Assembly: GCA_016758965.1 (NCBI GenBank)
Contig: JAEPRB010000002.1
Location: forward strand, 62,001 to 126,000
Source: Circinella minor
Taxonomy: Eukaryota > Mucoromycota > Mucoromycetes > Mucorales > Lichtheimiaceae
Reading direction: 5' to 3'
Length of the DNA stretch: 64,000 bases
Under the pieces are notes generated by a model. That model saw only the letters and a program-made list of their open reading frames with translations, did not search any database and was not told the DNA's origin. Position numbers and translations under genes: made by a program. Positions 1 through 48,771 of this stretch are shown here, piece after piece (the first letter of the stretch is position 1; each line of letters opens with the position of its first letter).

Positions 1-3000
1 GATGAGCTAGATACTCATGCATAAAAATGAGGTTTTATATTACGAAGTTGATGGTAAATGAAGCGCTTTTCCAGCTCTAATCCACTTGGTGATATTGTTG
101 GTATCATTCATCACTGTGCGCAGAACAAGTCCAATTTTGTGTATCAAAGTACTCATAATTTCGTATCACAAACGGAGAAACTGACGACCTGTAAGAATTT
201 CTGTATATTTATAAACCTTTCTGAAAAATATTACGTATTTGTTATAGATATTGTTTTTAACTTTCAACAAGCAATATTGTAACATTGCCAAATTAAAATA
301 TTATGGTGTGACGTATTCTCATGCAGTACATAAAAAGAGGAAAGCAATGAAGCTATGAAATTTGCATCGAATACAATAAAAATATTCAAAGTATATAGCA
401 TACGTATTTTGCTATTATACTTCAGGGCTACACATGATCTATTCGATTTATTCGTCATGTTTACTTGATACATAAACACTTGTAGATCATTATAATTGTT
501 TTTAATTCATATAATCAGCCGACATAATATCCAAATTATGTTTTGAAATGAAAAGTAGTATACAAATGGTTTTGAAAAAAAAAACAATTTTTAAATCAAT
601 ACCCAATACATCAAGTATTATATCCATTCATTACCACTTGCACTCGTTCTGTTTGATGTCCAAGTCATTGTGTTGCTCAATATCTTCATAAACAGCAGTT
701 TATCATACCTCTATGTATACAGATGTTGATTCAAATATTCACACCAGACCTTTTATACCGCTGGCACAAGGCAAACTATTTAAATGGTCGTTCATACCGC
801 TGGATTCAAGCTTAATTAACTAATTAACCTTGTAATTAATGGTAAACTGGTAAAATTACTCCAAGAAATTTACCATTTCATGTGTGTATGTGTAATATTA
901 AAGATAGATACTTCTTGTTTGGAACTGCTACTATGGATTACATTATTCATTTGTGTACTTAACAATATAGTGAAAAAAGATAAGAACTTTTGACTATTCT
1001 CCGTAAAATAAATACGGTATAAATAGTATATAAATGATGAGAATATGACACAAGCGTGTCAGGTTGTTGAATATCTTTGAAGAATTATAAGTGAGCTTTT
1101 CATACGGGATGGAATTACTTAATTTAGTATGTTTTTGAGATATCAATAACAATTCCCATCAATTTTATACCGGTATAACAACATCAAAATCATGTTTATT
1201 TATTGAGTTTACTTTCAACATTTTTAAAAGGTATGTAAGGTGCATACATTTTAGAATCGAATTTTTTTCTGTCTATTTTCAATGGCCTATTAATAAACAC
1301 AACTAAACCCAAAACAAAAACTAACCCACAAAAATGAAAGATATAACCACGGAGAACAATATTTGTGGATTAGTCTGTTTTGTTTTCACAGGATTTTTTT
1401 TTTTTGAGGCTCAAAGTTGGTGGGTGATTTCCAACTTTGGCTGGGGATATCTTATGATCGAACCAAAGTTGAAACACTCGTAAATCTAAGTAAAATAACG
1501 GGTATATATGTAACCGTATATGTATATATGGATGTTGTCATTTGATACATAAAAATAGCGTCATAAAATGGGAAGAGTAAAGAAAAAGGTGTGGAGCACA
1601 AAGCAAAAAAAGGTATGCTAGGCAAATTTGTTTCTAAAAGTTAAAATGTTGAAGAAAAGAAGTACTAACTAAAATGTGATTATTCATTCAAATTCTTTAC
1701 AAGAAAGCATTCATGGGTTTTGGATGCTGCTAGTAATATAAAAAACCTAGAAATTATTATAATATATGTTAACGATATATTGAATTATATTGTTCAGTAA
1801 TGGATGCTATATAAATAATTGAAGTCATTAGAAGTTCTAAAATGATATAAATCTCACTATAGAGTTACTGAACAAGTGGAACATATAACCTTTCATCTAA
1901 TATCATATATCCCTTTTCCATTACCTAATAAAAATTAGTATAGTGGCGGTGGTTAAAAGAATAAAATTGAAACATTACTTATAAAAATTTCGACTCTAAA
2001 ATGTATGCACCTTAACCAGTAAAAAGGTACTGGAAACATTCTATTGCTCACAGACCAATTTCGTTATAGTAATTTTCATTCTTTCTCAATAAAAGGAGAA
2101 TTTATATTAGAAAAACTTACTCTGGTATTTCTGAACTATGTTTAAAGTAATACATATTAAGCAGGACCTTAGAAACACTTTTGTCGTGTCCGGAAAATGA
2201 AATGACATACGTAACTGCATAGTCATTGCTCTCATTGAGAGGTATCCTTCATTTTTATCGACAAAAAAAAAGGGACATAGCCTTGGAGCCTTGTGCTTGC
2301 ATCCTTGGAAAGAAATCAAGTAGTGAATTTATATTTAAAGCAATAGTAGCAATGCGAGTAGCATAGGTGATATGAGTTATCTTCGTTTCCTTCTTGATGG
2401 ATTCGTTTCAAGAACAAAAAAGACATATAGATGTTAACCGATCAGCAACTTGTCTCATTATCACACGGAATCGTTGCCATCCACAGCTTTTTGCACTGCA
2501 GCGACATTTATTACTTTTTTTCGGTTCAATATTTTACTGTATACATATAATCTTGAGTGTTTCCTTTCGAATGGCAGTCACTACCATCGTCCGGTACTAT
2601 TTACTCATCGTATATGTATTCTCATTCGGCAAATAAATAAGTATTGAGTAGTAGAACATTTATCTTCTGTAAAGATACTCCGAAACAATACTGGAAAAGA
2701 AAATATGTCGGTTTATTTGAGTAGCCCAATTCCAAACTTTAAATGGCAATGCAGCAGCATAAAATAGAATATTCTCTGAGGTCGATCGGTTAGACATAGC
2801 ATAGTCTAATTTTATTAACTGGGAAATCACCTTTACTTTGGCACGAATACTGCCTAATTTATTTTATTGACACGGTGACAATCATAACTATACTTTATGC
2901 TGTTTGTCAATGTATCGTCATTGTTTTTATATATATACTAAACTTTCTCCATTGATGAGCAACAACTATTCCATGTGTACATCAACTTGTTAAATAGCTA

Positions 3001-3268
3001 ATAACATTGAATCCAATCATTATTCCTTATACCAAATGTTTGTTTGTTTTTAATAATATTAATAATAAAATGAGAAAAAAAGAATTTGACGGGGAAGAAC
3101 ATATGTCGTTGATAATGTTGCTGTTTGTTGCTGATGGATTATGTTATACTACTGAAAAAATATATATTTAAGATTCGTCCTCTGAAAATTCTTTCTTCGA
3201 CCTTGATTTTTCACCTTTTTGGTTGTTATTGTTGTGTGTATGATTTGTTGAATGTTTTTATGGATTTT
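1..3268. other. AT-rich gene-free stretch at left edge
   Basis: No supported gene on either strand. The open frames are short, low in complexity and unlike any family I know. The only local structure of note is a 9-bp inverted repeat at 1412-1439. The last part (about 3140-3268) is presumably the 3' UTR and terminator of the PP1 gene that ends at 3269. Confidence 0.6.
1412..1471. repeat. Short inverted repeat CAAAGTTGG / CCAACTTTG plus a third copy
   Basis: CAAAGTTGG at 1412-1420 is followed 10 bases later by its exact complement CCAACTTTG at 1431-1439, giving a 9-bp stem. A third arm, CCAAAGTTG, lies at 1463-1471. The motif resembles the CCAAAGTTCG repeats near 18.96-19.06 kb. Function unknown. 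Confidence 0.5.
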
Positions 3269-4841
<1,573 letters not shown>

Positions 4842-37643: not shown

Positions 37644-40592
37644 ATGCCACTTTTTTCTCAACCACTTGACCACCGACCATGGTTTCAGTCAAATAATTTT
37701 ATTATATATTCTTCTTTAGCAGCTGCAACAGCTGCTTTGGCTTATCGAACTTCGCAACAATCAACTTCATCAACAAAAACAACAGCAGCTGATCTATTAA
37801 ATAGCACTAAAAGAACCCTTTTCAAAGAAACTGAAGAAGAAACATTTAAACAACATAAACCATTGTTTCCTGTTGTAGACGTTGTTAAAAAAGTTGGTGT
37901 CAATGATGAATTCTTTCGACAATTAAAATCAATTGCAAAAATTCTTTTTCCAAATTACTATACAAAAGAAGTATTTTTGCTTATTTTGCATTCTATCTTT
38001 CTTATTCTTCGTACTTATTTAAGTGTCGTAGTCGCAAGAATTGATGGTCGTATTGTTAGAGATTTGGTATGTCTTTTTCTCTTTTTGTTTAATATATATA
38101 TATATATATAGTTAAACTCATCCTATATGATTATTTTTATTTATACAGGTCAGTGGTCGTGGAAAACGATTTCTTACTGGATTAATGTATTGGTTCGCAA
38201 TTGCTATTCCAGCAACATATACAAATAGTATGGTAATATATTTTTATTTTTATTATTTAAAGAGATGTAATTTGTTATGAAGGGGAATAATTGGTTATAA
38301 GTAAATAGAACCTTTTTTTAACTTATAATTATTTATATTTTATAGATTCGATACTTGCAATCAAAACTTGCGATTGGTTTTCGTACACGATTAACACGAT
38401 ATGTTCATGATTTATACTTGAATGATGATAAAACCTTTTATAAATCTATTAATTTAGATGGTAGAATTCAAGGTGCTGACCAGTAAGTACTTCTTTTATG
38501 GGTTCAGTTGTATTATGAGATTTGATTTTTGATTTTCTTCTCGTATCATTTATAATAGATTCATTACAACAGATATTGCCAAGTTCTGCGATACATTATC
38601 ATCATTATACTCCAATCTTGCAAAACCCATGTTGGATATGTTAATTTTTAACTATCAATTGATGAAATCCATTGGTATGGCTGGTACAATTGGACTTGGT
38701 CTCAACTATGTTGTAACAGCAAAACTTTTACGGGCAGTAACACCTTCCTTTGGTAAACTTGCTGCTATTGAAGCCAAATTGGAAGGTGATTTCCGTGCTG
38801 CTCATACTCGATTAATTACGAACGCAGAAGAAATTGCTTTTTATAATGGTGGTGAATTGGAACATTCTATCTTGGATAAAGCTTATTATGGACTTGTTAA
38901 ACATATTAATTCAATTTACAAGATTCGTATTAATTATAATATGTTTGAAGATTTTTTGATTAAATATGCTTGGAGTGCGTTTGGTCTTGTTCTTTGTGCT
39001 ATTCCTGTGTTTGCGCCTCATATGGTGGGCGATATTGCTGGAAATATTACAAAAGAAACAAGTGAAGATGCTCAAGTAGGTTCACGTACTCGTGGATTTA
39101 TTACAAACAAGAGGTAACAAAAGAGAAAGAAAGATATATGAGAATGAGTATGCTAAGATGAATATGCTATGATAACATGGGATTAACTTTTAAATATTTT
39201 TTTTTTTACATTTAATAAAAGATTGATGATGTCTCTTGCAGATGCTGGTGGTCGCATGATGTATTCATACAAGGAATTAGCTGAATTAGCAGGTTATACA
39301 ACTCGTGTGTATAGTTTACTTTCAGTACTTCATTCATTACACGTAAATGAATTTGATGGACCAAAGGAAGCCATTCCATTCGCATTGACTAATATTCAAG
39401 GAAAAATTAAACTTGGTGAAGATGGTATCAAATTTGAAAATGTACCTATTGTCACTCCTGCACCTGGTAAAGATCGTCAAGGTGAACTTTTGGTAGAGAA
39501 TTTGAACGTTCATATCCGTTCTGGAGAACACATGTTGGTCACCGGTCCAAATGGTGTGGGCAAAACTGCTGTTGCACGTGTCATTGCCACTCTTTGGCCA
39601 ACATTTGGTACTTTTATTTTTTATTTATTTATTTATTTGTTTGATGCATTAGATCTAAAGAAGATAAACTTACTAGTGTTTTTTTTTTTTTTTTGCAAAA
39701 TATAGAGGGTACATTATCAAGACCTGAAGATAGAAATATCTTTTATATTCCACAAAGACCCTATTTAAGTATGGGTTCTCTTCGCGATCAGTAAGCATTT
39801 TTATTTTTTATTTTTTATGTTGCAGATTGGTTTGGATATCAAAAAATCCATGGTTATTAATTTCTTATCTATATTATGTTACAGAGTCATTTATCCTCAT
39901 ACTCATGAAGATATGAAAAAGGCTGGACGAACAGATGATGAACTTATGAAGATTCTTGAAGTTGTTCGCTTAGCTTATATTCCTGACCGTGAAGGTGGTT
40001 GGGAAACCAAGAAAGAATGGAAGGATGTATTCTCCGGTGGTGAAAAACAAAGAGTAAGTTGATTAATTAATTATACTAAGAAGCTAACTATGATAATGAT
40101 AAAGAAGGAACTGACCAAAAACTTCATGATTATGATAGATTGGTATGGCGCGCTTGTTTTATCATCATCCTAAATATGCTGTATTGGATGAATGTACAAG
40201 TGCTGTATCCACTGATGTTGAAGGTCTTATGTATGCACACGCCAAAGACATGGGCATTAGTAAGTTACTTTATGCTTTTTTTTTTTTTTTTTGTAATATT
40301 ATATAATATTATATACGAGTTATGAAAAGAGTAAAGATATTAACCGTTATTTTGACTACGTAATATAGCACTTTTGACAATTTCTCATCGACCTGCATTA
40401 TTCAAATATCATCAATATCTGTTACGACTTACTGGTGATCATGGCAAGTGGGAATTAGAACAAATTGGTACACAACAACAACAACAATCTTTAGATAAAG
40501 AAATGCAAACTCTTGAAGACAAGTTACAAACTGTAGAGGCATTGAAATCACGACTTGGTGAAATTGATGGTGAACTCAGTTTGAAGCTATAA
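37644..40592 (+). CDS. Peroxisomal ABC half-transporter, subfamily D (PXA/ABCD)
   Basis: Imports long-chain acyl-CoA into peroxisomes for beta-oxidation; works as a dimer of half-transporters. Nine exons close in phase to 727 aa: 37644-38066, 38149-38232, 38346-38482, 38559-39113, 39222-39607, 39706-39790, 39885-40053, 40139-40259, 40369-40592. The N-terminal membrane domain includes the ABCD hallmark [16 protein letters not shown]. One nucleotide-binding domain follows: Walker [20 protein letters not shown], the Q-loop region [18 protein letters not shown], signature [15 protein letters not shown], Walker [13 protein letters not shown], and H-loop [13 protein letters not shown]-terminal coiled coil of about 40 residues ([20 protein letters not shown]) ends the protein. 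I cannot tell from sequence alone whether it is the PXA1 or the PXA2 partner. Confidence 0.95.
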
Positions 40593-43129
40593 AAAAAAAA
40601 AGGATGTTATTAATATTTTTTATGGGGGTGCCATGTTGATCATAGAAATTTTTTAATTTTCTGTGTGATTTGTAGCAGTAATTTTTTTTTTATTATTATT
40701 ATAGAAGTTTTTGTTGTTATTATATACTTCATCTCTTTTTTCTTCTTACTCTTTCTTTTTTTAATGTGAATCACACATTCTATGACCTTTTTATATATAT
40801 ATATATAAACCGTCCCAAGCTTTCTATATATTTCTGCTTAGTTTTATTATTACAAATTACCTTATTTTATTCTTTATATTATCCTTTTTCAAACATTTTG
40901 TACGGATTCCTTAATATACCACAAGTGACACATCCATCCACATAAACCTTAAATAATAATAGAAACCTGTAAGTTTTAACATATAAATACAAATATATTA
41001 TACAACAAAATCTTTCCTGTGTATCACACCAATATATATATATATTATTGTTAGTGGATTGCAGTATTGTTCGTGGATGGTTTATTATGATCATTGAAAC
41101 AAGTAATTATACAAAAAAATATTTTTGGTATCATCTTTCTTACTGAATCATCATACTGTGGTTTTCGTATTATGGCGTTACATACAGTCTATATTCTCCT
41201 GCATTATTATTACTGACATATAGCAATACCAAATAAACACACAACAAGCCTGATAATTGCTATCAACAATTCTTTCAAATAATAACATGATATCCATGTA
41301 TTGGAAAAGAAGTCATTGCATAAATAAACTCACGATATAGTCGATTTGATTAAGAGTCTATGAGATTATTAGAACAAAAAGTAGAATAAGAGAACAACTT
41401 CTTCAGTACTATAGTACTCACATTACAAAATAAATGCGAAAATGATTGATAAGGGTAATCAAAGAGTTATTCAGGGTGGGTAGTTTCCTGTCATGATAAT
41501 CACAAGCAAACTGAATAATGAATATATTGTGGTATTGTCTCTAGAAGATTTGAAACAGCCACTATAATTATCACGGAACCTATTATCATTCATATCGCGA
41601 ACCGCGTTTCTCGTATTCGCTTTTGACATGATTTGAGGATTATCCCCATGTCGAAACGAACCCAAACTAATACTTATGACGTATTTAGATGTTCATCTAT
41701 GAAAATTGAAATAAAACAGAGAATAAGATAGCCATATGGTGCTGAGATGATACTTGTTGCTATGAACAATAAATAATCAAATTAAAATGGTGTAGATAAT
41801 TGAAAATCCTATAATGATCTGATTCGATATCATAGGCCAAGACTTTGATATACTGTACTAATGTAGAGTATCCCTATGCAAATAATTTAGATGTTTAAAA
41901 AAAATATATATTTTATGATGCACAATACGTATGACAACATTTTAGTAGTTTTTAGTGCTGATGTACATCTGCCATTACTACTATATTTTTGTTCTGTAAA
42001 AGTAAGTCTTATTTGCTATTTATGTCATATATCATATATCATACCCATTGCATTTGCTTATATATACGTTCTCGACCTATCTACTCGAAGACTTATTACT
42101 ATTAAATGACTGATTGTTTTATCCCATTTTATCTTTAGCAGCATTTAATTGGAGGTGTATATTTCCATTTATGAATGCAGACCAAAATTGGGCTTTTTTT
42201 TTAATCTATATAATTTTTTTTTAAAAAAACAAATTCCACATTTTGTATGTAGTATTCTTATTATATGAAGATCAGATCTTTAGTATTATAAATAATGTCC
42301 CAATGTGCCTGTTATTTTCACATACTCTTATTTATCATGTGTCACACTTCTCACATGCATTCGTGTTGCATGAATAAAGTGAAATTTTTCCTGTTAATTT
42401 CATATATTATTGTATAGTGAGTTTTGTTTGTTCCACGTCTTGAATTTAGGTTACTCAAAAATACGCGTAAAAAAAATGTTGCATAATAAATTACAATTCA
42501 TTCCCCTTGAGATAAAAAAAAAGAAAATTTTACTTCATTTACCATTGTTGACTTCAGTTCTTGTCTATTCTTCATCTTCGAAAATACCCAGTGAATACTT
42601 TGTAAAGAAAATTTTCTTTTCTATTATTTTATATAGACTAACCCATTCATATGTATGGGTCTGATTCATAACATCCAATTATTATTTTTGTTTTTACACT
42701 TTCCTCTTTCTTTAATGTTACTGCCAAGTATCCAATTACCTGTTTGGTTTACTATCTGGCTATATATTATAGCTATATGTAAATTGTTGAAAGATAACAT
42801 ACAGGCGGGCGCTGTTTCAACCAACTAGACTTAGGAATCGGGTATTCAAGGATCTGCAGCTTCAATGACTCATTGATGGGACCATGTATCTCTTTTACAC
42901 CTAAAATTCAATGAGCGGTCTTTTGTTTATCCCTTCTCACTTGACATCAAAGATCATCTAAATAAATGATTTCAAGGGTTCCCCTAACAATTTTTTTTTC
43001 TCATGGAGGATTGGGGCGGGAACCCAGAAACCAACAAATTATATAAAGGGGAACAAAAAAGACATATCTTCTTTTTGCTTCTTTCTTCTTTACTATTTTA
43101 ATTTCACCAAAACTTCTTAACAAGCAAAC
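40593..43129. other. Intergenic, gene-free, with THI5 promoter at its end
   Basis: AT-rich, with no supported gene on either strand. The terminal 130 bases hold a TATA box and a pyrimidine-rich leader of the THI5 gene. Confidence 0.55.
43040..43048 (+). promoter_or_regulatory. TATA box of the THI5 gene
   Basis: TATATAAAG 82 bases upstream of the ATG at 43130, followed by a T/C-rich stretch. Strong core-promoter look and a short leader. The leader carries no riboswitch. Confidence 0.6.
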
Positions 43130-44342
43130 ATGTCTACTGATAAAATTACCTGTGTTATGAACTGGTAAGCTTATAATTTTTTTTCTAGAAAATTTATTCG
43201 GTTAAAAGTTTTTTTTTAACTAATCAGTAAAATATTATCTATTTTACAAGGCACGCTATTCCGTACCATCTTCCTGTTTATCTTGCTGAAAAGCTCGGTT
43301 ATTTTGTTGAAGAAGGTATCAAGGTTGCCATCTTGGAACCCAATAACCCTTCTGATGTCACTGAAATTGTTGGTAGTGGTAAATCTGACTTGGCTTTAAA
43401 AGCCATGATTCATACCATTGCTGCCAAGGCTCGTGGCTTCCCCGTCAAGTCCATTGGTACTCTTTTGGATGAACCTTTTACTGGTGTTGTTTATTTGCGT
43501 TCCAAGAGTGGTATTACTAGCGACTTCCAAAGTTTACGTGGAAAGCGTATTGGTTACGTTGGTGAATTTGGAAAAATCCAGTTGGACGAATTGACACGTC
43601 AATACGGTATGACTCCTGAAGATTATACCGCTGTTCGTGTTGGTATGAACGTGACCGGTTCCATTATTCGTGGTGAGATCGATGCTGGTGTCGGTCTTGA
43701 GAATGTTCAAATGGTTGAATTGGAAGAATGGTCTGTACAACAAGGTCGTACTGCTGATGATGTTGCTATGCTTCGTATTGATGAACTTGCTCACTTAGGT
43801 TGTTGCTGTTTCTGTTCGGTAATAAAGATATACTTATCATGTCTCTTTTTTATATATATATATAAAGAAGAAATCCAAGTGTATTAACTTTTGCATAATA
43901 GATCCTTTTCATTGGTAACGAAAACTTTATTAATAACAACCCAGAAAAGGTCAAAGCCTTCATGAAGGCTGTCAAGCGTGCAGGTGATTACATGTTCAAA
44001 GATCCTGTCAAGGCCTACGATCTTTTTGTTGAAATGAAACCTCACATGAACAGCATTGTCAACCGCAAGATTTTCCAACGTTCGTTCCGTTACTTCTCGC
44101 GTGATTTCAAGAATGTCCAACGTGATTGGGACAAGGTTACCAATTACTGTAAACGTTTGGAAATTGTTGACGATAAGTTTGAACAAAACCAAACCAATGA
44201 TTTCTTGTCTTGGGAATTGTTGCCTGAATCTACTCCTGGGGTTGAACCACCTACTGTTGATACTGGTGTTGTCAGCTGTGGTTGTCGTACTAATCATCCT
44301 CAGGGTCCAACCCCTGACGTTGTTTCTGCTATCAAGGCTTAA
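43130..44342 (+). CDS. THI5: HMP-phosphate synthase THI5/NMT1 (thiamine pyrimidine)
   Basis: Makes the thiamine pyrimidine precursor HMP-P from its own active-site His and bound pyridoxal phosphate; a single-turnover 'suicide' enzyme in yeast. Three exons (43130-43164, 43251-43818, 43902-44342) close in phase to 347 aa. Periplasmic-binding-protein fold start [40 protein letters not shown] carries the candidate active His. The diagnostic iron-binding LGCCCFCS motif is followed by the exon 3 start [21 protein letters not shown]-terminal HRDWKKV-equivalent is [15 protein letters not shown]. An odd Cys pair near the end (SCGCRTNH) lies outside the core. The stop is followed within 6 bases by a consensus 5' splice site and then by a TPP riboswitch, so feedback by thiamine pyrophosphate at the 3' end is likely. 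Confidence 0.98.
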
Positions 44343-44347
44343 CAAAT

Positions 44348-44649
44348 GTAAGTTCTAAATTATTGGATCCAATAAGTACTTTTTATATTGAAGTGGAAAT
44401 TGTGTGTAGGTGTGTAATTGTATTAAAAAAGATGAATATTATACTGACAAAATATTTTTGGTTTTATACCTTCCATTCCAATTTTTTTTTTTTGGTTTGG
44501 TTGGGGTTCGGTTTTTCTTTTAAAAAATTTATTCACTTTATAGTGGTCGAACCTAGGGGTGCTCGAGTTTATCTTGGGCTGAGATCATTACCCTCCGAAC
44601 CTGATCAGGTTAATACCTGCGCAGGGAAGCGTTCGACCATTTTTTTTAG
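44348..44649 (+). other. Probable 3'-UTR intron of THI5 containing the riboswitch
   Basis: GTAAGT at 44348-44353 lies just after the stop codon. Two acceptors are possible: TTTATAG ending at 44543, which abuts the 5' side of the aptamer, and TTTTTTTTAG ending at 44649, ten bases after it. The second choice places the whole aptamer inside the intron. An AATAAA at 44660-44665 follows. Splicing is inferred from the signals. Confidence 0.65.
44544..44639 (+). promoter_or_regulatory. TPP riboswitch (THI-box aptamer) in THI5 3' region
   Basis: Complete thiamine pyrophosphate aptamer. P1 is a perfect 9-bp helix (TGGTCGAAC 44544-44552 with GTTCGACCA 44631-44639). P2 AGGGGT pairs with ACCC. The pyrimidine-sensing J3/2 is GGGCTGAGATC (44576-44586). 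The pyrophosphate-sensor arm is GAACCTGATCAGG (44597-44609) plus TTAATACCTGCGCAGGGAAG (44610-44629), with P5 CAGG/CCTG and P4 CCTG/CAGG. This is almost letter-for-letter the TPP consensus. It is on the sense strand of THI5, 200 bases beyond its stop. The next gene (46702-47268) is 2 kb away and on the opposite strand, so it is not a leader of another gene. Related fungal switches control splicing. Confidence 0.97.
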
Positions 44650-46701
44650 CTAGTTTTTCAATAAAGGATAGCTTTCTAAAAGAAATTTTGTTTATTTTGG
44701 TCTATTTTATTTTGTTTCTGAAGTGATTTCTGTTTTTATTAAAAAAAAAACAGATGACGGCAAAAACCGGGATGATATGGGGTTACTTTTATGACCAGCG
44801 GTTACATTTTACCCTGGTTGCCACTTTTTAACTTATTCTCATAATGTGATGTGTCCATAACATTGGTTCTGATCACCAATGGGCTTTTCCTATTAAGGAT
44901 AGTGTTTCTTTTTTCTTCTAAATCAAAAGAAAACTAATACAACTACTTCGTATGCTTCTTATCCTGTTTTACGCGATTTACTTGTTTTATTTTGTATGCT
45001 TAACCACAACTTTTGATGAAATCCATCCTTCTCTATCTACGCAATATACATTAAATTTTTGATTGCCATTACGATTAAAACAATTCTAATTCCAAATATT
45101 TTGGGTGTATGCCTGTAAATAATGGTGATTTTCACATTAAAATTGTTAGTCCTATGAGAAAAGTTCAAAAATAGCAGATTTTTAGTCCGAGTTTACTCAT
45201 TTATTATCAGGAGGATACGCTTTTATTCCTTTCAGATGCCTCGCTGAAGAAGTGTCATTTTTAATATAATAATAACTTCAGTAATACAATAATAAGCTTA
45301 AAAGTTGGCGATAACGGCAAATCGACTTTTGTTCCCTCGTCAATGCTATACGCTCTAAACAAATTGAGCACATACTTTATATAATGACTACGAACACGAC
45401 TTCAATCAGTTTCACCCATCATTACTTAATCATTTACAACCATCATTGAACCAACTCAATCCATTAAATTTAGCTCAATAACCAAACACGATCAATATGG
45501 TTCGCATAAAGCACCCTCGACTCGGGCACAAGAAGTTGATTAGCCTGAATCGTTCATAGACGATGTTTTATGACAACCAAGTGAAAGCATATACTTGAAT
45601 CAAACCATGATAAGTGATTTTTTTTAAATCAAAACTCAATTGGCTATCACCTGTTGCATTGGTAAAGCAACATATGTTTTTTTTCCAGTCCACATATTTT
45701 TAAAATTACTTCTCATCCAAATATAATAAGATTTCTTATAGTTTTAGATATAGAACATGTGGAATAATTAGAGGAAATCTTGAACACGTTCGTTTGTGGG
45801 TAGCAGAGAATTTAATGCGCTTAATTATAAATTTCTGTAAAGAAACAGAGGTTATGTGACGGATGTAATTTGAAATGAGAAATTATCAAGCCAAATAAAC
45901 CAAACGTGGCTATAAAATTGTTTAATGTATGAGACCGAGCTTAGATAATGGATATAAAATCAATATGAAGGCTTAATGAGTTCCTTATTCATAATATACA
46001 CATTCTTAATTTGTAAGAAGAGGAGAAGCTGCGCAACACTATTGTATATCAGAGACCACCTACAAGGAATTAGATAAATATATGTAAAAACTAAATCCAG
46101 ATTGGTGTGAGCCAGAGAGAAGATTTATTGATCTGTCTTATGATCGAAAAACGATATAAAATACTACTATGAAAAAAAAAAACATTCACATCAAACCAAT
46201 AGTATTTATTGTAACTACTTGAGAACTCATCTTTCGTTCATGAGATAGACCACCTTTTGGAAATCCATCAAATGTATTGTATTGAAGCCAATCACTATCG
46301 ACAGTTGAATCATTTTTTTCCAGAGTTCCCATTGCTCTACTCTCAATTGCCCGTTATCAATCAAATTGTTGTGATAAAATGCTTACATGTCGAATCTAGT
46401 ATCCTGATTATTACTCCCAGATGCTTTATCCTCTCAACAGACAATATTATGACCAACATATCTCTAAAAAAGAAAAGCACGAATTGACTAATATACAGAA
46501 TTATAACACGCCTTTACTTTTCTAGTATAATCAAATCCATTCATCTTCATACTAATTAAAACACTTCCAATAAAAAAACCACATAACAATAGTAAATTTC
46601 ACAACAAATCAAAACATAAAAAAAAAGTATCAAATATTTTGTAAGATCATGACAAATGCCTCTTTTATTGCTAAAAGTTGTCAACATGACTTCCGTCACA
46701 C
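44650..46701. other. Intergenic, gene-free
   Basis: The THI5 3' end (AATAAA at 44660-44665), then AT-rich DNA with no supported gene. The small frame at 46257-46487 is not family-like. The right end is the eL30 3' UTR. Confidence 0.55.
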
Positions 46702-47268
46702 TTATTGAGTGGCAAGAATGTCAGAATCACCAGCATCAGTGATGGAAAGGACGGTGGTGCGGAAAAGCTTACCACAAGCGGTACCAAGATCGATGTTGTC
46801 TAAAGTAAATAAAAATTTTTTTTAGCACACCAATTCTTTTGTCAAATTTTTTTTCTGTTTTATTTCGAATACGTACTGCCGTTGTAGTGATGGACACCAG
46901 TCTTGGACAACATAGCGTAGTATTCAAGTTCGGACTTGCGAAGAGGAGGGCAGTTACCAGCAATGATGATCAACTTAGCTATAGACAATTAAAAAAAATC
47001 ATGACAAATGGTTAGTAAAACGGGAGGGGGACGATCTCAGCCCGAACAGTAAAACCCAGGGCGACTACTTTGCATAGCTTTTTTTTTCCTGGGCTCCTGT
47101 CCCCCAAGTAGTCTTTTAAAAAAATTAATTGTAATACTTACACTTTCCTTGACGGAGGGTCTTCAAGGTGGACTTGTAACCCAAGGTGTACTTGCCAGAC
47201 TTGGTGACGAGTTGAAGGCGCGAGTTGATAGATTCGCTGTTCTTCTTGGACTTATTAGCGGGAGCCAT
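46702..47268 (-). CDS. RPL30: 60S ribosomal protein eL30 (RPL30)
   Basis: Component of the large ribosomal subunit; a kink-turn RNA-binding protein of the L7Ae family. Three exons (47268-47142, 46978-46877, 46799-46702) close in phase to 108 aa. The protein reads [20 protein letters not shown], then [53 protein letters not shown] and ends [13 protein letters not shown]. The exon 1 donor must be T|GTAAGT because GTGTAA would cause a stop, giving GKSKL where most relatives have GKAKL. Intron 1 carries a candidate L30-binding kink-turn (47026-47113). The 5' UTR may have its own intron (47421-47275: CAA|GTAAGT ... TATAG). Divergent from EF-Ts. Confidence 0.98.
47026..47113 (-). promoter_or_regulatory. 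Candidate L30 autoregulatory kink-turn in eL30 intron 1
   Basis: Read on the minus strand: stem GGGGGAC (47105-47099) with GTCCCCC (47032-47026), second stem GCCC (47094-47091) with GGGC (47043-47040). They are separated by a purine-rich asymmetric loop AGGA / TGAGATC. The loop supplies the tandem GA.GA pairs and a 3-nt bulge of a kink-turn. The pattern GGAG ... C-N-GAGAU is the same as in the yeast RPL30 transcript that L30 binds to block its own splicing. A competing 8-bp helix (GACTACTT 47113-47106 with AAGTAGTC 47070-47063) overlaps this fold. Function is inference. Confidence 0.6.
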
Positions 47269-47607
47269 GTCTAACTATATGAGCAGTAAAAAGTGTTTGT
47301 ATAAGTTGTTTATTCGAAGCAAATAGGAATAACCATTATTATTGTTTAAAATTTTAAATGTGCAAAAATTACCAATTAGATTGAGAGGGAGGAAAAGAGA
47401 GGAAGGTCTTCAGATACTTACTTGGTCCGCCTGTAAAAAAGTGAAAAATTTTGGTGACAAGCCACTTTTTTACGTTAATTTTTATCCTGCCTTGAAAGAA
47501 GTTTATGTCGGAGACTATGCGGGCTTTATTTTCTTCTTAAAACTAAAGGAACCTTCGGGCTGGCAGGGGTTTTTGTCTATAATAAAGGAACATATAAAAA
47601 ATTAAAA
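47269..47607. promoter_or_regulatory. Shared divergent promoter of eL30 and EF-Ts
   Basis: 340 bases separate the two start codons. The interval holds a possible eL30 5'-UTR intron (47421-47275) and must supply both promoters. Both genes serve translation, so co-regulation is plausible. An open frame running through it has no family likeness. Confidence 0.5.
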
Positions 47608-48771
47608 ATGAACAGTTGGACACCATTGACTTGTCAAGCACGTCGTTTATTATGCAGAAACTATGCTGCTGCTGCTACTATCAAACCCAATATTAAGTTA
47701 CTAAAACAGTTACGTCAAGAGACAGAAGTTTCCATGACTAAGGCAAAAGAAGCTCTTGTCAAGAATGCTAATGATTACCAAAAGGCATTGGAATGGCTTG
47801 AACAAGACGCGCAAGTATCTGGTGCAAAGAAGGCTCAAAAAGTGGCTGGACGCACAGCTGGAGAAGGTCTTATTAGTATTGCATCTGTTAGTGCCGAAGG
47901 AGCACAAAGCAAGAGCACAATTATTGAGGTATATATATATATATATATATTCATACTACACTTTTGAATATTGTTCAACTATAAATGGATCCATCATTTA
48001 TTAAACAAACCTTCTATTTTTTTATGCGTATTATTCATATTATAGCTTAATTGTGAAACAGATTTTGTATCCCGTAACGATGTATTCAAAAACTTGGCTT
48101 CACGTATTGCTGCTACATCATTGTTATTGCATGATCCATCATCTGCTGGTGTTGCGGTTGAACAAATTCCTGTTGAAAGTTTATTACAATCTCCTTTGAT
48201 GCCCCTTCCAGATCAACCTGCCAACGATCTCGACGTAGCTAGTGGAAAGACAGTTAATGAGACTATTGTTGAAGCAATTGGAAAGCTTGGTGAAAATATT
48301 ACTTTACGCCGTGCTGCTATTGCCGTGGCCCATGGAGCCACAGGAAGCTATATCCACGGTGGAGATACTGTTGCTGGAAAGATTGGCGGTTTGGCTACTA
48401 TACAACCACTTAAGGTATCCAATTTGAATGACTCACAAGCAGCTGGATTGAGCAAGATTGCTCGTCAAGTCGCACGTCAAGCTGTTGGATTCAAACCAAC
48501 CTATCTCAATACAAATGATATCCCTGCTGACGAATTAAATGCACAATCGGATCAGAAGCAGTATATTTCTGAATGTGTGTTGAATGAACAACCTTATCTT
48601 TTGAACCCTGATATGACAATTGCTCAACATGTTACTAAGGCAGCTCAAGATGCTGGTGTCCAAGATGGTGTAATTGTGTCTGGCTATATTCGTTGGGAAG
48701 TTGGAGAAGGGATTGAAAAGAAGGAAAATGACTTTGCAAGTGAAGTCCAAAGAGCTGCCCAAGGCAACTAA
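47608..48771 (+). CDS. TSFM: Mitochondrial elongation factor Ts
   Basis: Nucleotide exchange factor for mitochondrial EF-Tu. Two exons (47608-47928, 48046-48771) close in phase to 348 aa. The N-terminus MNSWTPLTCQARRLLCRNYA is Arg-rich without acids and fits a mitochondrial presequence. The UBA-like domain follows: LLKQLRQETEVSMTKAKEAL with KNANDYQKALEWLEQDA. The EF-Ts core shows the hallmark LNCETDFVSRNDVFKNLA across the intron, then later GKLGENITLRRAAIAVAHG. The C-terminal module has YLNTNDIPADELNAQ and LLNPDMTIAQHVTKA. An insertion of about 30 residues (SLLQSPLMPLPDQPANDL) sits between the core subdomains. Divergent neighbour of eL30. Confidence 0.97.

Follow-up and report, generated by a model that had tools for sequence, protein, structure and literature searches.

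A complete TPP aptamer lies 3' of the THI5 coding region in the mucoralean fungus Circinella minor

Results

A TPP aptamer behind the THI5 stop codon

The window analysed here, the whole 64,000-nucleotide stretch of Circinella minor DNA, contains a real and complete TPP aptamer 3' of the THI5 gene, a position unusual for fungi. From P1 to P1, the aptamer spans positions 44544–44639 of the forward strand, which is the sense strand of THI5, and P1 begins 201 nt after the stop codon (44340–44342). A cmscan search of the whole window matched RF00059 at 44545–44645 (+) with 63.8 bits (E 3.4e-10; model positions 1–105 of 105), compared with a gathering cut-off of 54.3 bits; this was the sole gathering-level Rfam match. 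On the segment 43000–47400, the E-value was 2.3e-11 and no other match was found up to E 1. P1 is composed of UGGUCGAAC and GUUCGACCA, which form nine perfect pairs. The CUGAGA and GCG motifs are present in the RF00059 alignment, and the strand folded alone forms P1, P2/P3 and P4/P5 at −39.9 kcal/mol. The preliminary description of this DNA had claimed a complete TPP aptamer with a 9-bp P1, located about 200 bases after the THI5 stop codon on the sense strand, and had suggested the RF00059 search; the single match, the nine pairs and the measured distance bear it out.

THI5/NMT1 comprises three exons on the forward strand (43130–43164, 43251–43818 and 43902–44342, the last including the stop codon), which together encode 347 aa without an internal stop. 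The joined protein matched Pfam NMT1 with 239.9 bits, and a database protein from Circinella umbellata (Mucorales) has an equal length and 99% identity over the full length. The earlier naming of the gene as THI5 is thereby upheld, and the fungal lineage proposed for the DNA was also correct, the organism being mucoralean. The two matches that THI5 has in the genome correspond to its own exons in the window, and the gene is therefore single copy. A TATA-like TATATAA (43040–43046, +), which may be the promoter element, lies 90 nt upstream of the ATG and suggests a short leader. No RF00059 match lies 5' of THI5 within the window (cmscan), and the 5'-leader (type I) arrangement of ascomycetes, with the aptamer in a 5'-UTR intron together with a uORF, is not found at this gene.

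On the strand of the aptamer, the nearest Pfam-supported gene downstream is EF-Ts, about 3 kb away, represented by the ORFs 47608–47967 (EF-Ts_N, 31.8 bits, slightly below the cut-off of 33.2) and 48094–48771 (EF_TS, 76.2 bits). Three forward-strand ORFs of at least 60 aa lying wholly inside 44700–47607 have no Pfam match. Thus, the claim that no gene follows the aptamer in its own orientation holds, in terms of Pfam support, for about 3 kb. Elsewhere in the window, ORFs at 39817–40592 contain SGGEKQRVS; judging by eye, we take them to resemble the ATPase portion of an ABC transporter of the peroxisomal type.

Three aptamers in the genome, each 3' of a gene

The assembly (46,642,965 bases in 619 contigs) was searched with RF00059; a first look gave 1071 candidates, 49 of which were scored. 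Three aptamers were found: one at C453 (65.7 bits), the one in the window (63.8 bits) and one at C63, which is divergent (46.2 bits, below the cut-off of 54.3). A conserved-core pattern recovered the identical three aptamers and no others, with no hits in the reversed control; an earlier, stricter core pattern recovered those of THI5 and THI4 only. Each of the three sits 3' of a same-strand gene, namely THI5, THI4 and a sugar transporter gene, so that the plant-like 3' placement put forward for THI5 is shared by the other two aptamers found in the genome.

At C453, 119 nt separate the stop codon of THI4 (Pfam Thi4, 259.1 bits) from the Rfam match; a search for the THI4 family yielded this one strong locus and a borderline one at C70 (25.9 bits, or 26.9 with neighbours; cut-off 26.2). 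At C63, the aptamer lies 61 nt 3' of the transporter stop codon (Pfam Sugar_tr, 229.7 bits). THI5 acts in the pyrimidine branch of thiamine synthesis and THI4 in the thiazole branch, so that thiamine genes account for two of the three cases. All three aptamers keep P1–P5, CUGAGA and GCG, and their P1 sequences differ yet still pair. The remaining 2 kb behind the THI4 aptamer, up to the contig end, contain no same-strand ORF of at least 70 aa, and the next same-strand ORF of at least 90 aa behind the transporter aptamer is 2.9 kb away. In these searches, no gene that could be the target came to light downstream of any of the three aptamers.

The sequenced piece carrying the THI4 locus (L004) also contains a 550-aa ORF (2011–3663, −), which is presumably glutamine-synthetase-like, and, upstream of it, ORFs at 451–1334 that, by eye, we take to resemble a Tc1/mariner-type transposase. 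Directly behind the transporter aptamer (L005:4438–4533) lies a long inverted repeat, AAAGGAACAATAAC...GTTATTGTTCC. Its weak likeness to the plastid family psbA-3 (42.4 bits vs a cut-off of 48.4) is probably due to symmetry alone, and the repeat could be a 3'-end element.

A close paralogue of the transporter (C314; 83% identity to the C63 protein) gave no match to RF00059 at E-values up to 5. Its 3' flank (L025:1231–1420) has GTAATA 5 nt past the stop codon and, read by eye, TTTCAG at stop+60 followed by sequence resembling a decayed aptamer. The alignment of the two transporter flanks scored 111.5, above all 70 natural controls (maximum 110.0) but below the best of 500 shuffles (maximum 118.5), and for this reason we regard a decayed TPP aptamer in the paralogue flank as likely, not as certain.

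Splice-like and poly(A)-like motifs in the 3' regions

The THI5 3' region contains, all on the forward strand, a set of motifs that may serve RNA processing. Two donor-like sites precede the aptamer: S1, GTAAGT (44348–44353), 5 nt past the stop codon, and the weak S2, GTGTGT (44410–44415), 67 nt past the stop codon and right behind a TAG (44409). CTGAC (44444–44448) is the sole match to the branch-site pattern YTRAY between stop codon and aptamer, and this candidate branch site lies about 95 nt from the putative acceptor. No AG occurs from 44432 to 44541; the acceptor-like TATAG (44539–44543) then abuts the first base of P1. Within P2, the AG of AGGGG (44555–44556) is at the position described as the plant and green-algal acceptor (PMC9544697). 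Since CUAGGGG, with this AG in it, is part of the TPP consensus at large, its presence is weak evidence for a masked acceptor. An alternative acceptor-like site, TTTTTTTTAG (44640–44649), directly follows P1, and a candidate poly(A) signal, AATAAA (44660–44665), lies 20 nt behind P1; the segment 44640–44685 is predicted to form a hairpin with the AATAAA in its loop (unpaired 1.00). The only poly(A)-like motifs within 44348–44543 are AATAAG (44371) and ATTAAA (44422).

At THI4, a donor-like GTACGT is located at stop+12 (11 nt between), the first YAG after the stop codon is the P2 AG at stop+131, and AATAAA occurs at stop+357, far behind the aptamer. At the transporter, AATAAA occurs at stop+32 and TTGTAG at stop+55, just before P1, and the 3' region has no donor except GTGAAA, which overlaps the stop codon. 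GTAHGT within 12 nt of the stop codon is present in two of the three genes; its chance of occurrence, calculated after the motif had been noticed, is about 0.011 per gene (about 1.1%).

The seven coding introns of the three genes, those of THI4 and the transporter being placed by reading-frame continuity alone, are 73–159 nt long, end in AAG or TAG and start with GTAAGC, GTAATA, GTAAAG (twice), GTAAAT, GTATGT or GTAAGT. The putative 3'-UTR introns of THI5 (S2 to 44543, 134 nt) and THI4 (120 nt) fall inside this length range, and a putative THI5 intron from S1 to 44543 (196 nt) would exceed all seven.

Complementarity between sensor and donor-like sites

In THI5, the segment 44403–44413, which covers S2, is complementary over 11 bp to 44613–44623 (both +), the P5–P4 3' strand including GCG (−14.4 kcal/mol). 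In THI4, 11 bp can form between the downstream side of the donor-like site and the P1 5' strand (−13.7 kcal/mol). Complementarity as good as that of THI5 occurred in 26 of 500 shuffles of the upstream sequence, 49 of 500 shuffles of the aptamer and 22 of 249 natural windows, and as good as that of THI4 in 12 of 500, 8 of 500 and 13 of 252, respectively; both thus appear only modestly above chance. No such complementarity was found at the transporter, where 438 of 500 shuffles are no worse than the real sequence. Given that the pairing partner differs between THI5 (P5–P4) and THI4 (P1), no common platform emerges, and a sensor–donor helix shared by the three genes was looked for but not found.

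Folding models were used to compare states with and without the aptamer; a TPP energy of −10 kcal/mol, used in one run, was an assumption. For a nascent THI5 RNA that stops short of the P1 3' strand, the minimum-energy fold includes 9 of the 11 pairs; once the strand is complete, the aptamer itself is the equilibrium minimum-energy structure, even with no ligand. Forcing the aptamer left the predicted accessibility of the THI5 donor-like sites unchanged (S1, 0.44 to 0.45; S2, 0.20 to 0.20). For the THI4 donor, accessibility went from 0.50 to 0.65 in one run and from 0.41 to 0.37 in another. A thermodynamic opening of the donor is therefore not supported by these models for THI5, and for THI4 they are contradictory. 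The ligand-free alternative of THI4 is predicted to be favoured by 10–13 kcal/mol, a rough figure because the aptamer state was represented by the minimum-energy fold of the isolated strand, with poor P4/P5. On the acceptor side, the predicted access of the P2 AG fell on aptamer formation from 0.29 to 0.20 in THI5 and from 0.04 to 0.00 in THI4; the other run gave 0.25 to 0.17 for THI5 and 0.21 to 0.00 for THI4. Access of the TATAG at 44543 barely shifted (0.36 to 0.33), and that of the THI5 AATAAA did not change (1.00 to 1.00).

Comparison with known TPP riboswitches

The mechanisms of eukaryotic TPP riboswitches are summarized in PMC10043782. The sensor of the plant THIC switch, as described in PMC10226581, base-pairs with a 3'-UTR donor. 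Circinella THI5 resembles it in having the aptamer behind the stop codon of an HMP-P synthesis gene, a donor-like site between stop codon and aptamer, and the P2 AG. It differs in that the gene is THI5/NMT1 rather than THIC, and in that THI4 and the transporter of the same genome share the 3' placement. The plant logic, in which a poly(A) site is spliced out, does not clearly apply, since no AATAAA occurs within the putative intron, the one present (44660) being located past the aptamer.

The same gene is controlled in N. crassa by a switch in a 5'-leader intron with two donors, where the riboswitch is described as pairing around the second donor in the absence of TPP (PMC5997356). The likeness extends to a sensor complementary to the second donor-like site. 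Unlike in N. crassa, however, the Circinella aptamer is 3' of the coding region, which makes a uORF role impossible, S2 is a weak donor, and its pairing is only modestly above chance. According to PMC2258182, P4–P5 took part in every example investigated up to then.

According to PMC4260697, SSUA/THI5-like genes of Micromonas sp. RCC299 and Aureococcus anophagefferens carry TPP riboswitches in the 3' UTR; these combine a THI5-like gene with a 3'-UTR aptamer as in Circinella, but the algal genes are single-exon and intronless. The diatom THIC and SSSP genes likewise are thiamine genes with an aptamer in the 3' UTR, but the diatom P2 reads GCGG and offers no AG acceptor, and the THIC aptamer of P. 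tricornutum is reported not to respond to thiamine (PMC9544697).

Among fungi, PMC5882874 describes TPP switches in 138 fungi, located in 5'-leader introns, internal introns or the leaders of single-exon genes. It includes one NMT1 switch from a species of Mucor, with the position given in the supplement, and one 3'-UTR case, in Postia placenta beside eIF5B, which was not validated by the energy method. For Mucoromycota, TPP switches of THI4, NMT1 and sugar transporter genes are reported in PMC11683625, which places the sugar-transporter group (TPPswSUGAR) consistently in the 5' UTR. That group and the C63 locus, likened here by description and position only, share a divergent TPP aptamer adjoining a Mucoromycota sugar transporter gene, but the Circinella aptamer lies 61 nt 3' of the stop codon. 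The literature searched yielded no fungal 3'-UTR TPP switch beside a thiamine-synthesis gene, although supplements and subscription papers could hold one.

Discussion

It is plausible, judging from the sequence, that the THI5 aptamer is a working regulator. As to how it would work, we tentatively favour TPP-dependent splicing in the 3' UTR through release of a donor. The intron would start just past the stop codon and extend to the 5' edge of the aptamer. In the absence of TPP, a part of the sensor (the P5–P4 3' strand in THI5, the P1 5' strand in THI4) would pair with the donor region and close the donor; with TPP, the sensor would fold and the donor would be freed, and splicing would then move to an isoform that is less well made or less well kept. 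Transcription through the aptamer, use of the splice sites, the direction of the TPP effect and the consequence for the mRNA are all what we infer here. In THI5, the covered donor would be S2; an exon junction there, at 67 nt from the stop codon, could bring about decay of the mRNA, which splicing from S1, at 5 nt, should not do. This contrast follows from the rule that places the limit at 50–55 nt between stop codon and junction, a rule that may not hold in Circinella. The genome encodes the exon-junction and decay factors Mago and UPF3, which makes junction-dependent decay possible.

A less probable reading, and one that we consider unlikely, places the control at the other end of the intron: the TPP-bound fold would hide an acceptor at or in the 5' edge of the aptamer, with the result that the 3'-UTR intron is retained or that the terminal exon, which would hold the aptamer, the poly(A) signal and little more, is left undefined. 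In all three genes, a YAG abuts the aptamer or falls within it, the sole platform feature common to them; the predicted access of the P2 AG drops on aptamer formation in both THI5 and THI4; the paralogous transporter, devoid of an Rfam match, retains TTTCAG at stop+60; and TPP binding in algae is described as leading to intron retention (PMC10043782). However, the TATAG ending at 44543 lies outside P1 and its predicted access is nearly constant, plant splicing to the P2 acceptor is reported to accompany bound TPP (PMC10226581, PMC9544697), and a route from retention to lower expression is not evident. On balance, we infer TPP-controlled splicing in the 3' UTR, with release of a donor ahead of masking of an acceptor.

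Control without splicing, in which the folded aptamer alters the use of neighbouring cleavage sites, is improbable. It would suit the transporter, which is without a convincing donor and whose AATAAA at stop+32 would direct cleavage to the 5' portion of the aptamer, and the AATAAA of THI5, so near to P1, is predicted to be unpaired; yet it is equally accessible with the aptamer, that of THI4 is far past the aptamer, and a test of the model in diatoms is reported to have shown no effect (PMC9544697). Diatoms are also the precedent for aptamers that have ceased to regulate their genes, whether or not they still bind TPP: the 3'-UTR aptamer of P. tricornutum THIC is described as unresponsive in transcript, 3'-RACE and reporter assays (PMC9544697). 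The divergent, sub-threshold transporter aptamer and the decayed-looking flank of its paralogue point the same way. We nevertheless find such a loss quite improbable in Circinella, where three unlike genes keep P1–P5, CUGAGA and GCG with P1 helices that vary yet pair, and where THI5 and THI4 have AGGG in P2, unlike the diatom aptamers (PMC9544697). That the aptamer forms part of the leader of some downstream transcript, so far unrecognised, and controls that transcript would agree with the usual 5' location of fungal TPP switches (PMC5882874, PMC11683625); the distance of about 3 kb to EF-Ts, the ORF-poor sequence behind the other two aptamers and the presence of thiamine genes upstream in two of the three cases make this highly improbable.

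Release of a donor by TPP can be embedded in a wider picture, which as a whole we regard as doubtful. The entire TPP regulon, that is THI5, THI4 and the sugar transporter, would work from the 3' UTR; the two-donor switch of ascomycetes would have moved behind the stop codon, with TPP selecting between decay-resistant and decay-prone forms of the 3' UTR and with convergence on plant THIC; and the published '5'-UTR' switches of Mucoromycota would include such cases.

The 3' placement is unlike that in most described fungi and like that in plants, and all three of the aptamers found show it. In the accounts cited above, the fungal TPP switches described act mainly before or within the coding region. 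The transporter locus questions the 5'-UTR assignment of the sugar-transporter TPP switches of Mucoromycota. If the Circinella aptamers work, they would represent a second, fungal route to vitamin feedback from the 3' UTR beside that of plants, and the same sensor would be movable between the two ends of a gene with its link to a splice site kept.
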